The notes beneath the pieces are model-generated. The model was not told the DNA's origin and did no database searches. It was given only the letters and a program-made list of their open reading frames with translations. Position numbers and translations under genes: made by a program. 37,737 nucleotides of DNA from a virus: the IMG/VR virus record IMGVR_UViG_3300038309_000183, positions 1 to 37,737 of that record. The stretch is one strand, 5' to 3'. Each line of letters begins with the position of its first letter. Within the stretch, counting starts at the first letter, position 1. This document shows positions 2,204 to 14,380 of this stretch, piece by piece.

Positions 2204-4132
2204 CTACTGGATCTTGAAATTGTCGAACACAAGAGTCTGGTTTGCTGACGCCTCGTTAAAGCCGTTAAGATGGAGGCGCTGAGTGGCTGGAGTAGCCACA
2301 GTAGTATTGTTCAGGCTATCAGTGTAATGACTCTCCCCTATATATAAGTCTATAGTCTGATCAGCGCAAACAATCTCAAGGTCAATGTGATGGAAATTGC
2401 CATCTGAAAGATCCTCCGTAACTGTCTGATAGTACGAGGCCCCGTTATATGTCACCAGGACCTGTGTTGACGATGAAAATCGAAAGGCAAAGGGGTGAAC
2501 TGCTTCATAGGGTGTTGTAATGACGTAAGACCCGGGATCAAAATCACCAGAAACATACCTAACATCAAAGCTGATGTGTATATGCGACCAATCTATATTA
2601 TTCCCATCTGTGGCAGTAATCCACGCCCAAGTTCCGGTGTCCAATTGAATCCCGTTCCCATCCACGCCAGTAACAAACGAATAGCTTGGGGTCGCCACCG
2701 AGGCTGGTGCCACTGTGTTTCCATCATCCATATCGTAGGTATCAAGAGTCAAATCGTCAGCGGCCCATTCGACAAGGTAGGATGATCCACCGCTTATACT
2801 ATTCGTAACACTCTCGCCTGAAAATGACGCAAGGTCGCCGCCGTCTGAATCTTCAAGGCCATCTGTAGGCTGAGTATAGGCGATTGTTATCGTCTCGCCC
2901 GCCTGGAATGCATCCGCTGTCGTAAATGAGAGGGTAGAAGTTGTGTCTCCCGAAGCATAAGTCCCATTGCTTGCTCCGGTTACAGAACCAGTTACAACTA
3001 TTCCCCCGCTACCCCCAGAACCAATTGTGATGTTTTCAGCTAAGGTTAAATCAACATTTGTTGTAGTGGTCATCTCAGCACTTACAAAAGTCGGGAGTAA
3101 ATTAAAAGTGGCTCCAACAGTTTTGGCCGCATCCATTGTGATTGTATCCGGATTGGTCGTAGTCGATGTGTCTGTGGCATCCCCTGTCCAGGCGAGGAAC
3201 TCGTATCCGCTTGCCGCTGTAGCCGTCAATTGAGGAGTCGATGTGTTTGCAAGATATTGCGTACAATCGGATGCCCCATCACCACAATCTATTGTTCCAT
3301 CAGACGCAATTACATTAGAATCGCCGGGGTCGGAAACAGTCAACAGCCACCACGGTGTGCGTGACATTGCCACAGTAGATATGGCAACATTCTGTTCGAC
3401 AAGGAATAAATCACCATCTGTACGATTTTGGTATAGTCCACTTGCGTCTGTTACATCTGGATCGGTGTTTTGAAATATCGGTGCGCCTCCTCCCGTCATG
3501 TCGCCCCATGATAAAGGGACAACGGTCCCCGTCCTGCCGTCAGGCAGGGTCTGAGATGTAAGCGGTGTGCCGCCTTTCAATACTTGGCCATTTGTCCCAA
3601 CTGCGTTAGGGAATTTATAGCTTATGTTAACCGCTTGATCGTCTGAGCCCTGGAATCCACTTGTCAATTCGCTTGTTGTGTCCGCTTCGAACTGGTATGA
3701 ATAACCCGGCACCCCGCTCTCTTTCGTCGGGGACAGCTCCCCGGCTGTTTGGACTGTCGCAGTCGAGAGTGAGGATGTTAGAACGTAATCCCCGAGTGTG
3801 GTCGTAAGGGACGAGGACGTGACGTAATCCCCGAGAGTTGTTGTTAAGGACGAGGCCAAAACATAATCGCTAAGAGTCGTAGTCAAGGCAGAAGAGAGCA
3901 CATAGTCTGAAAGGGTTGTTGCAAGAGCAGACTCGAGTACATAGCCAGACAAGAAGTTTTCCTTCGTTATAGCCCTTGAAGCCGGAGTCCCATCTGGGTC
4001 ATCTACAACATACACAAGGTCGTCGGAAGATGCCGTTGTTATCCTTGTTAACGCTGATCCTTTCGTGTCGGCTGCATATGCTTGTAATGGCATCAAAAGA
4101 ACTATAAAAGCGCTTAAAATATATTTAATCAA
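2204..4132 (-). CDS. Fibre/adhesin-like protein with signal peptide, InlB-like and LamG-like regions
   Basis: 642 aa, TTG start 7 nt after GGAGG; the TTGA overlaps the stop of the small gene upstream. Residues 1-20 form a signal peptide ending QAYAA. The next part (about 40-55) has the VYVVDDPDGTPASRAIT pattern common at the N-terminus of phage fibres. Residues about 60-125 are four or five near-repeats of S-S-L-T-T-T-L-G-D-Y-V, likely a trimeric stalk. A divergent InlB B-repeat follows at about 275-345 (A-S-G-Y-E-F-L-A-W-T-G), then a SwmB/Ig-like region, then a C-terminal LamG/concanavalin-like sandwich (about 455-642). Probably a surface-binding fibre. A Sec signal on such a protein is unusual. 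Confidence 0.7.
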   Translation of the reverse strand: MIKYILSAFIVLLMPLQAYAADTKGSALTRITTASSDDLVYVVDDPDGTPASRAITKENFLSGYVLESALATTLSDYVLSSALTTTLSDYVLASSLTTTLGDYVTSSSLTTTLGDYVLTSSLSTATVQTAGELSPTKESGVPGYSYQFEADTTSELTSGFQGSDDQAVNISYKFPNAVGTNGQVLKGGTPLTSQTLPDGRTGTVVPLSWGDMTGGGAPIFQNTDPDVTDASGLYQNRTDGDLFLVEQNVAISTVAMSRTPWWLLTVSDPGDSNVIASDGTIDCGDGASDCTQYLANTSTPQLTATAASGYEFLAWTGDATDTSTTTNPDTITMDAAKTVGATFNLLPTFVSAEMTTTTNVDLTLAENITIGSGGSGGIVVTGSVTGASNGTYASGDTTSTLSFTTADAFQAGETITIAYTQPTDGLEDSDGGDLASFSGESVTNSISGGSSYLVEWAADDLTLDTYDMDDGNTVAPASVATPSYSFVTGVDGNGIQLDTGTWAWITATDGNNIDWSHIHISFDVRYVSGDFDPGSYVITTPYEAVHPFAFRFSSSTQVLVTYNGASYYQTVTEDLSDGNFHHIDLEIVCADQTIDLYIGESHYTDSLNNTTVATPATQRLHLNGFNEASANQTLVFDNFKIQ

Positions 4133-4774: not shown

Positions 4775-5938
4775 CTAACCCAAAAGAAGAGCCGTGTGCT
4801 CAGGTTTGATGTTTTTAACGCCCCAGGCAATCGCGACTTCGTAGACTGCCTTGCGGTAACCAGGGTAAACAGAAACTTCGAAAGACAAGCCTGAACGCGG
4901 GTCTGTAATCGTTGTAACATCGATTGCCAAGTCACCGGTTGACGGTCTTTCAGGCATACGGGTTGCAAGAACAATGGCAGAGCGGTTGAAACACATATTC
5001 CGTGCAGATGTTGCAACAACGGTGATTGCGTAGGCCGCTGCATCCTGTGCAACTCTTAGCCCAGGCGCACCGATTGTGATTGTGTCACCTGAGGCAGGGT
5101 TTGCACCTGCGAAAGAAACAGAAGTAACGACATATTTGTTTGTGTCGTTTGCAATTGTGATGATATCGCCAGCTGCCACAACACCGGTTCCTGCTGTAGC
5201 CAGCGGGATAATGGTTTGGCCGACTGTCAATGCAACTGCCGTGGTCGTTGCGCTTGCCATTGCTCCTGCTGTCTGCGTTTGGATTTGTCCAGATTCTCGG
5301 ATGTCCATCCCTGCAACAGTCTGGAAAACGCCCTGTCTCAGAATGGTGTTGTCGCCCTGGGTATTGTAGGTTCCCTGCTTCCCAAGGAAGTTTGCACCGG
5401 CTGTAGTATTCACAACAAGGTGGTTGTTAGATTGCGGTGCACCGTTGTCTTTCAGGATTTTGAGCGCCATTGTTGCATCCGTGAACGTACCAGCGGTTCC
5501 GAACGGTGTGGAAGCCGCTGTGCCGTAAGCGCGAGAAAATGTTGCCTGAAGCTCAGCAAGATCTGCCTCAATCTGGTTTACGAGCGACCGCACGGCCTGT
5601 GAAAACTGACCGTTAAGGATGGAATTTACACCCGGGCCAGTGTTCAGTCCGCGCTGTTCTTCACCGTCCCATGAAAACCGCTCATATTTCGAATTTGAAA
5701 TAGTAACGGCAGTACTTCCCACGGTGTGGTCTGCCTCTGACGGAATTGACATGGCAGGCGTGACTGTGCCGCTGGTCGTAGCCCCTACAATCGGAACGTA
5801 TACGCTCTGGTTGAGCTTTCCTACTTCAAGACGTGAGTCCATTGTTACAGCCGGGATAAGCCCGACAAGTTCGCGGGAAACAACGTCAAGTTCCGCATAC
5901 AATGAAGGAATAAGGTTTGTAAGTGTGTTCGTGGTCAT
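4775..5938 (-). CDS. Major capsid protein, P22 coat-like
   Basis: 387 aa, ATG start at 5938 with AAAGGG eight bases upstream. It begins M-T-T-N-T-L-T-N-L-I-P and carries the features of the P22 gp5 coat group (HK97 fold): an early alpha/beta region with ISNSKYERFSWDGEE, the helix R-S-L-V-N-Q-I-E-A-D-L-A at about 110-122, and a beta-rich insertion at about 210-310 that would match the I-domain. It follows the scaffold gene and assembles the procapsid with it. The leader before this gene holds two strong hairpins that can pair in alternative ways and one of which contains the ribosome binding site. Confidence 0.9.
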   Translation of the reverse strand: MTTNTLTNLIPSLYAELDVVSRELVGLIPAVTMDSRLEVGKLNQSVYVPIVGATTSGTVTPAMSIPSEADHTVGSTAVTISNSKYERFSWDGEEQRGLNTGPGVNSILNGQFSQAVRSLVNQIEADLAELQATFSRAYGTAASTPFGTAGTFTDATMALKILKDNGAPQSNNHLVVNTTAGANFLGKQGTYNTQGDNTILRQGVFQTVAGMDIRESGQIQTQTAGAMASATTTAVALTVGQTIIPLATAGTGVVAAGDIITIANDTNKYVVTSVSFAGANPASGDTITIGAPGLRVAQDAAAYAITVVATSARNMCFNRSAIVLATRMPERPSTGDLAIDVTTITDPRSGLSFEVSVYPGYRKAVYEVAIAWGVKNIKPEHTALLLG

Positions 5939-6050
5939 TTTTTATGCCCTTTTTTTGATTTTGGTAGGGCATAAAAAAGGCCCTACATGGTTTATTATTT
6001 CCACATAGGGCCGCGACTCCCCAGAGCCTTATCAAGGCCAGCTTGATAAG
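5938..6050 (-). promoter_or_regulatory. Coat-gene leader with mutually exclusive hairpins (candidate RNA switch)
   Basis: Read on the minus strand. Segment A (6012-6001) pairs with B (5990-5979) over 12 bp including two G-U pairs, with a 10-nt loop, and is followed at once by six Ts: a standard intrinsic terminator shape. Segment C (about 5978-5966) pairs with D (5950-5938) over 13 bp; D contains the coat AGGG ribosome site and the first base of the ATG. B (5986-5980) can instead pair with C (5970-5964) over 7 bp, which would break both hairpins. A further 9-bp hairpin lies at 6050-6028. The layout resembles attenuators and riboswitch expression platforms; no ligand or protein partner is recognised. 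Confidence 0.55.
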
Positions 6051-12277: not shown

Positions 12278-12305
12278 TTGACATTCTCGTACAATGTGGT
12301 AATAT
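12278..12305 (+). promoter_or_regulatory. Early promoter copy 1 with operator-like dyad
   Basis: TTGACA (12278-12283), 16-bp spacer, TAATAT (12300-12305). The spacer carries an imperfect dyad at 12282-12298 (ACATT...AATGT, six of eight pairs), well placed for repression by a dimeric HTH protein. An identical arrangement is at 14297-14324. Confidence 0.7.
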
Positions 12306-12361
12306 GTAATCAAGAGGTCAGGGAAAGGCCCTGACCGAAACACCCAAGCGAAAGGAAACGA
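12278..12361 (+). repeat. 84-bp promoter/leader block, copy 1
   Basis: Matches 14297-14380 at 82 of 84 positions. It includes the promoter, the operator-like dyad, an 8-bp leader hairpin (GGTCAGGG at 12316-12323 with CCCTGACC at 12329-12336, loop AAAGG) near the expected transcript 5' end, and the AAAGGAAACGA ribosome site. It is a whole, reusable expression signal. Confidence 0.92.
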
Positions 12362-14296: not shown

Positions 14297-14324
14297 TTGA
14301 CATTCTCGTACAATGTGGTAATAT
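14297..14324 (+). promoter_or_regulatory. Early promoter copy 2 with operator-like dyad
   Basis: TTGACA (14297-14302), 16-bp spacer and TAATAT (14319-14324), identical to copy 1, including the ACATT...AATGT dyad at 14301-14317. It drives the short unit 14384-15155. Confidence 0.7.
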
Positions 14325-14380
14325 GTAATCAAGAGGTCAGGGAAAGGCCCTGACCGAAACACTCAAACGAAAGGAAACGA
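14297..14380 (+). repeat. 84-bp promoter/leader block, copy 2
   Basis: Direct repeat of 12278-12361, 2,019 bp apart, with two mismatches, both in the unpaired leader between hairpin and ribosome site. The genes that follow the two copies are unrelated, so only the control block is duplicated. Confidence 0.92.

Follow-up and report, generated by a model that had tools for sequence, protein, structure and literature searches.

A putative RNA switch between the scaffold and coat genes of tailed phages

The leader that precedes the coat gene in the phage DNA studied here looks, judging from its sequence and predicted folding, like a real and undescribed switch that would help to balance scaffold and coat during head building, two proteins which tailed phages must make in balance. 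It combines a putative terminator, a hairpin over the coat ribosome site and an exchange pairing between the two, all of which recur in leaders of related phages. Small tandem hairpins with matched loops are found upstream of coat genes and, in many other phages, upstream of scaffold genes. In many phages that can be cultured, the element offers a defined RNA target open to mutation.

Organization of the coat leader

The window, by which we mean the whole stretch of DNA analysed, is a 37.7-kb virus record that belongs to a siphophage according to its gene content, including genes for a tape measure, an Erf-like annealing protein, an exonuclease and a helicase loader. On the minus strand, terminase, portal, head morphogenesis and scaffold genes are followed by the leader (6050-5938) and the coat gene (Table 1).

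A sequence-only reading made earlier had proposed that four consecutive segments, A to D, make up this leader, and the layout was found at the positions it gave. Segments A and B form a stem of 12 bp followed by U6, which has the composition of an intrinsic terminator (GC-rich stem, then U tract) as judged by sequence, fold and shuffles, and 35 nt separate the end of the U tract from the coat start codon. Segments C and D pair over 13 bp. Segment D takes up the A of the coat ATG together with the greater part of the probable ribosome site (AAGGG, 5951-5947), in agreement with the earlier suggestion that this hairpin hides the ribosome site and the first base of the start codon. The competing helix B:C comprises 7 bp. 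The perfect 9-bp hairpin noticed just upstream, here hairpin 1, was also recovered, both in the sequence and in the fold.

Table 1. Coordinates of features in the window, numbered from its first nucleotide
Feature	Position	Strand	Sequence	Basis or remark
Scaffold gene, 228 aa	6094-6780	-		phrog_206; proposed source of the ligand
Hairpin 1, perfect 9 bp	6050-6028	-	CTTATCAAG-CTGGC-CTTGATAAG	Sequence and fold; position matches hairpin 1 of other coat leaders
Hairpin 2, reading (a)	6016-6027	-	GCTC-TGGG-GAGT	Loop matches hairpin 1 (CUGG) by inspection; no overlap with A
Hairpin 2, reading (b)	6007-6022	-	GGGG-AGTCGCGG-CCCT (as RNA GGGG-AGUCGCGG-CCCU)	Overlaps terminator arm A
Segment A, putative terminator 5' arm	6012-6001	-	GGCCCTATGTGG	Sequence and fold; A:B kept in 11 leaders (permutation p < 2e-5)
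Segment B, putative terminator 3' arm	5990-5979	-	CCATGTAGGGCC	GTAGGGC (5986-5980) alternatively pairs with C
U tract of terminator (T6)	5978-5973	-	TTTTTT	Sequence; doubles as 5' end of segment C
Segment C, 5' arm of ribosome-site hairpin	5978-5966	-	TTTTTTATGCCCT	Stretch pairing with B is GCCCTAC (5970-5964)
Segment D, 3' arm of ribosome-site hairpin	5950-5938	-	AGGGCATAAAAAA	Sequence and fold
Coat gene, 387 aa	4775-5938	-		phrog_283 / PF11651 P22_CoatProtein

Folding of the minus strand from 6093 to 5930, which the sequence-only reading had put forward as a check, yielded a minimum-energy structure (-53.1 kcal/mol) that holds exactly A:B, C:D and the 9-bp hairpin. Its z-score is -6.06, and none of 200 shuffled sequences was equally stable. 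When the leader was subjected to 4000 dinucleotide shuffles, a stem of at least 9 pairs followed by a U tract arose in 1 and a helix of at least 9 pairs over the start in 160, while both features together arose in none.

The triloop of hairpin 1, UGG, is flanked by C and C in the window, while in other leaders the flanks are C and G. This hairpin is probably the first of the predicted protein-binding hairpins. The second is ambiguous in the window, where it has two readings. Reading (b) follows the consensus GGGAG-N2/3-GCG-(G)CCC common to leaders L026, L039 and L495 and is weak by itself, and forcing it leads to loss of the 5' part of A:B. Neither reading qualifies under the strict matched-loop test, which the window consequently does not pass. 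A -35-like TTGACT is located at 6101-6096 and lacks a good -10, in contrast to leaders L032, L035 and L238, and the scan for promoter-like sites listed none at the leader of the window.

Conservation of pairings among related leaders

Relatives were assembled from a sample of 80 coat relatives, later extended with several coat queries and bacterial genomes. The closest coat relatives (coat 73% identical) have no leader, and the device is thus optional. In 182 of 235 loci the scaffold-coat gap is no longer than 40 nt, and about 80% of coat relatives are leaderless. A long leader is present in about 25 to 30 non-redundant loci, with folding z-scores mostly between -2 and -7. The exact DNA pattern of the window leader matched no other contig. 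Because long leaders cannot be aligned with the window and are too divergent for sequence alignment in general, conservation was assessed by permutation between leaders instead of a covariance model, comparing the fit of a leader's own segments with that of segments taken from other leaders.

Nine terminator-type leaders (the window, L026, L032, L034, L035, L075, L124, L140 and L241) were tested; their segments were delimited visually on the basis of A:B and C:D, a limitation of these permutation tests. The pairings A:B, C:D and B:C were all better within leaders than across them, and none of 20000 permutations was as good, while the control pairings gave null results (A:D, p = 0.74; A:C, 0.18; B:D, 0.27). 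When each group was represented by a single leader (seven in all), B:C had an exact p of 0.0006. Leaders L411, L489 and L416, fetched after B:C was proposed, behave like the earlier ones. In the set of 11 leaders, each of the three predicted pairings reached p < 2e-5, and pairings that were not predicted ranged from p = 0.26 to 0.64. For B:C, the energy in this set is -13.9 kcal/mol within leaders and -10.4 kcal/mol across them (p < 2e-5; 4e-5 without the window). Across related leaders, the four segments therefore show the compensatory changes that the sequence-only reading had named as support, and B:C is kept in addition. Since the three pairings are leader-specific, selection has most likely acted on the exchange of the terminator and the ribosome-site hairpin with B:C.

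Where the terminator is missing (12 leaders), the hairpin block itself pairs with the coat ribosome region (-18.8 kcal/mol within, -14.1 kcal/mol across, p = 0.0001), so that formation of the small hairpins would mean coat expression in both classes. Upstream of coat in L109, L464, L474, L482, L483 and L487, the leaders form a third class, in which three hairpins match (e.g. CUGCG or CUAGG, each three times) and a terminator is lacking.

Static folding gives a less uniform picture. Forcing hairpin 2 breaks A:B, yet C:D stays closed in almost all leaders, so the translational half of a switch would need co-transcriptional kinetics, the ribosome or a protein. Accessibility of the ribosome site is low relative to shuffles in many leaders, mostly not significantly in individual cases. 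The earlier interpretation of the leader as an RNA switch is supported in part, by the conserved three-way pairing; on the other side stand the leaderless closest coat relatives and the persistence of C:D.

Comparison of gene content between leader-bearing and leaderless phages disclosed no additional regulator gene, and in the same comparison the scaffold of the window resembles scaffolds of terminator-type leaders. In L317 (Serratia phage Smarc2), a terminator followed by a ribosome-site hairpin (TAGCC-AATGGA-GGCTA) precedes a phrog_247 coat, a layout like that of the window with another coat family. The scaffold-coat gap of L012 and L030 contains a long inverted repeat (CTCCCG...CGGGAG) that overlaps a promoter-like sequence, possibly a repressor site preceding the tandem hairpins.

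Tandem hairpins with matched loops

According to an automatic list of hairpins, most leaders have, ahead of the terminator, a pair of small hairpins with a common loop, as in L032 (CAGCG/CAGCG), L034 (CUGCG/CAGCG), L109 (CUAGG/CUAGG) and Salicola phage CGphi29 (GGAU/GGAU). Loops are mostly 3-4 nt long, being either triloops with a middle G (YNGNG) or GGAU tetraloops, and the middle base of the triloop is G in 48 of 52. Loops vary between phages. Within one leader the stems of hairpins 1 and 2 differ while their loops match, the trace expected from a protein that reads loops in RNA and not palindromes in DNA. Inspection of the other terminator-type leaders shows hairpin 2 overlapping arm A, which in the window it does only under reading (b).

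Under the strict matched-loop test, 15 of 27 coat-upstream regions were positive against 0.4 expected, and so were 34 of 102 non-redundant scaffold-upstream regions against 1.0 expected. Hairpins upstream of scaffold occur mostly in phages without a coat leader. There, the distance from the end of hairpin 2 to the start codon is mostly 1 to 25 nt, and the ribosome site of scaffold lies within hairpin 2, often in its loop, or abuts it. Scaffold relatives are also more frequent than coat relatives in named-phage records (469 vs 70).

Phages that have phrog_247 coats, or scaffolds of that group, carry the element too, namely Acinetobacter TRS1, Serratia Smarc2, Cronobacter phiES15, Shigella EP23, Stenotrophomonas ply2008005c and Morganella IME1369, the coat family having been scanned for TRS1, Smarc2 and PaMx42 only. 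Its presence with phrog_247 coats suggests that it follows the scaffold and not the coat family. By the strict test it is absent from roughly half of the relatives (62/121), and it was not found in P22, AMA2, SE13, Taid and K21lambda1.

When both strands of 20 phage genomes (1.26 Mb) were scanned under strict conditions, 24 matches were obtained, about half of them directly upstream of scaffold or coat, and part of the remainder inside glycine-rich scaffold coding sequence. At position 16698 of L279 (minus strand), a matched pair (CCGAG, CTGAG) lies 6 nt upstream of an ORF of 436 aa encoding neither scaffold nor coat; the pair may be due to chance or mark a further regulated gene. The 206-nt coat-upstream gap of L321 (Vibrio phage R01) has two matched CGGGG hairpins, and the coat of this phage is only 27% identical to that of the window.

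Proposed mechanism and alternative explanations

We see about an even chance that the leader serves as expression platform in an RNA switch that responds to a protein, free scaffold being the likeliest ligand. Without ligand, A:B would terminate transcription before the coat gene and C:D would mask the coat ribosome site. A phage protein bound to the upstream tandem hairpins, in the window probably including its atypical pair, would stabilize hairpin 2, which holds part of A, so that the terminator fails; B, once freed, could pair with the emerging C and expose D and the ribosome site. As forced hairpin 2 does not open C:D, B:C must work during transcription or with help. At scaffold genes, binding to tandem hairpins on the ribosome site should repress translation. 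When coat is short, free unassembled scaffold would thus shut off its own synthesis and switch coat on. Repression at scaffold together with activation at coat is self-balancing only if the ligand signals excess scaffold, which favours the free form of this protein. The wider proposal, which we hold somewhat more tentatively, is that of an undescribed widespread family in which free scaffold reads two matched loops, represses its own translation and turns on coat through antitermination and unmasking of the ribosome site, so that capsid stoichiometry would be set at the RNA level. If true, such dual placement would put a single rule of RNA-protein recognition to unusual use. The guess of a head-protein ligand, made in the sequence-only reading, fits with the matching tandem hairpins at both scaffold and coat genes.

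Loop type correlates more strongly with scaffold than with coat identity (for scaffold, Mantel -0.60; partial given coat -0.49), a relationship that could reflect linkage because the scaffold gene adjoins the element. The predicted structure of scaffold consists of a long coiled coil, a small domain and a C-terminal helical tail (pTM 0.41); no RNA-binding domain was recognised in this model, which does not decide whether scaffold binds RNA. Loops track coat identity as well (Mantel -0.48; partial -0.30), and the same switch might be read by coat protein, another phage factor or a host RNA-binding protein, which we consider rather unlikely. If coat were the ligand, it would repress scaffold and activate its own gene, a self-reinforcing and not a balancing arrangement, and coat as the only ligand is further weakened by occurrence of the element with a second coat family. 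As to host factors, one class has GGAU loops similar to GGA sites of the CsrA type, and CsrA is present in hosts such as Marinobacterium; against this protein speak the missing GGA in most loop classes and the lack of a CsrA gene in the phage records searched, including the window.

It is improbable, in our estimate, that the leader is a ligand-free device, in which the terminator and the ribosome-site hairpin, both fixed, would determine how much coat is made or would serve to protect or process the mRNA, and the small hairpins would act as insulators. The stability of C:D regardless of hairpin 2 would agree with such a device, and so would promoter-like sequences after the scaffold stop in several leaders, where a terminator could separate transcripts. 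Conservation of B:C, matched loops, overlap of hairpin 2 with arm A and hairpins on the scaffold ribosome site are nevertheless not predicted by it. The promoter-like sequences, which precede hairpin 1 in several leaders, and the overlapping inverted repeat in L012 and L030 could also suggest a DNA operator, with inverted repeats serving as transcription-repressor sites near a coat promoter. This we regard as very improbable, since stems of hairpins 1 and 2 differ while their asymmetric loops match, repeats at scaffold genes sit on the ribosome site, and a good -10 is missing from the window. That the structure arose by chance in intergenic DNA rich in AT might be argued from the leaderless state of most close coat relatives, but this is hardly credible, being refuted by the z-score of the fold, the shuffles lacking both features together and the conservation across leaders.

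A switch read by free scaffold can be tested directly, as the element is present in culturable phages, among them Shigella phage EP23, Cronobacter phage phiES15, Stenotrophomonas phage ply2008005c, Acinetobacter phage TRS1 and Salicola phage CGphi29.

Comparison with known systems

A search with Rfam 15 at the gathering score gave no matches in the window, in 14 coat-leader loci or in 16 scaffold- or coat-leader loci, and relaxed thresholds added weak sub-threshold matches only, none of them usable. No description of this element was found in open-licence literature, and likewise no RNA element reported there for scaffold autoregulation. A protein-responsive antiterminator coupled with a translational operator at phage head genes would thus apparently constitute a new RNA family.

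The replicase hairpin of MS2/R17 is the translational operator of the coat protein in ssRNA phages. It shares with our proposal a structural protein reading the loop of a ribosome-site hairpin and thereby shifting synthesis between virus proteins. The differences are that here dsDNA tailed phages are concerned, two hairpins are involved, scaffold is the likelier reader, and coat would be activated by antitermination in addition to repression. Targets of CsrA/RsmA are paired GGA-loop hairpins, one of them on the ribosome site. Only the GGAU and GGA-triloop classes resemble them, while the window and most loop classes have no GGA in the loop, and this candidate was rejected.

Closest in logic are ANTAR systems (EutV, NasR, AmiR), in which the loops of two small hairpins have conserved residues, the second hairpin shares sequence with the terminator base and a protein dimer favours antitermination (PMC3369931). 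By inspection, the other terminator-type leaders likewise have two small hairpins with the second on the terminator, an arrangement that the window would show only under reading (b). ANTAR targets are hexaloops with A at position 1 and G at position 4 (PMC3369931), whereas phage loops are mostly 3-4 nt (YNGNG or GGAU), vary between phages and match within one; they do not show the A1/G4 hexaloop, and an ANTAR target RNA was rejected. The phage leader, moreover, adds the ribosome-site hairpin with its B:C exchange. The ANTAR protein family PF03861 had no match in 12 phage records, and the control genomes were likewise without a match.

The P22 scaffolding protein autoregulates its own gene according to Wyckoff and Casjens 1985, as cited in PMC5744158, and on that secondary account control of scaffold over its own gene is established in a phage with this gene order. 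In P22 itself, scaffold is preceded by a gap of just 13 nt and coat by no gap, which explains absence of the element. The putRNA of HK022, which has two long stems in about 73 nt, binds RNA polymerase and acts at a distance without a protein factor (PMC9378689), is also a two-hairpin phage RNA acting on termination. It was rejected on anatomy, because the stems of the element described here are short and overlap the terminator itself.

Other features of the window

Between the coat gene and the end of the window, two big overlapping ORFs of 692 and 642 aa (154-2232 and 2204-4132, minus strand) are present, with no PHROGs match. On the plus strand, two 84-nt copies with 98% identity were observed at 12278-12361 and 14297-14380, each with a promoter-like TTGACA-16-TAATAT followed by the perfect hairpin GGTCAGGG-AAAGG-CCCTGACC. 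This duplicated sequence may represent a shared early leader.
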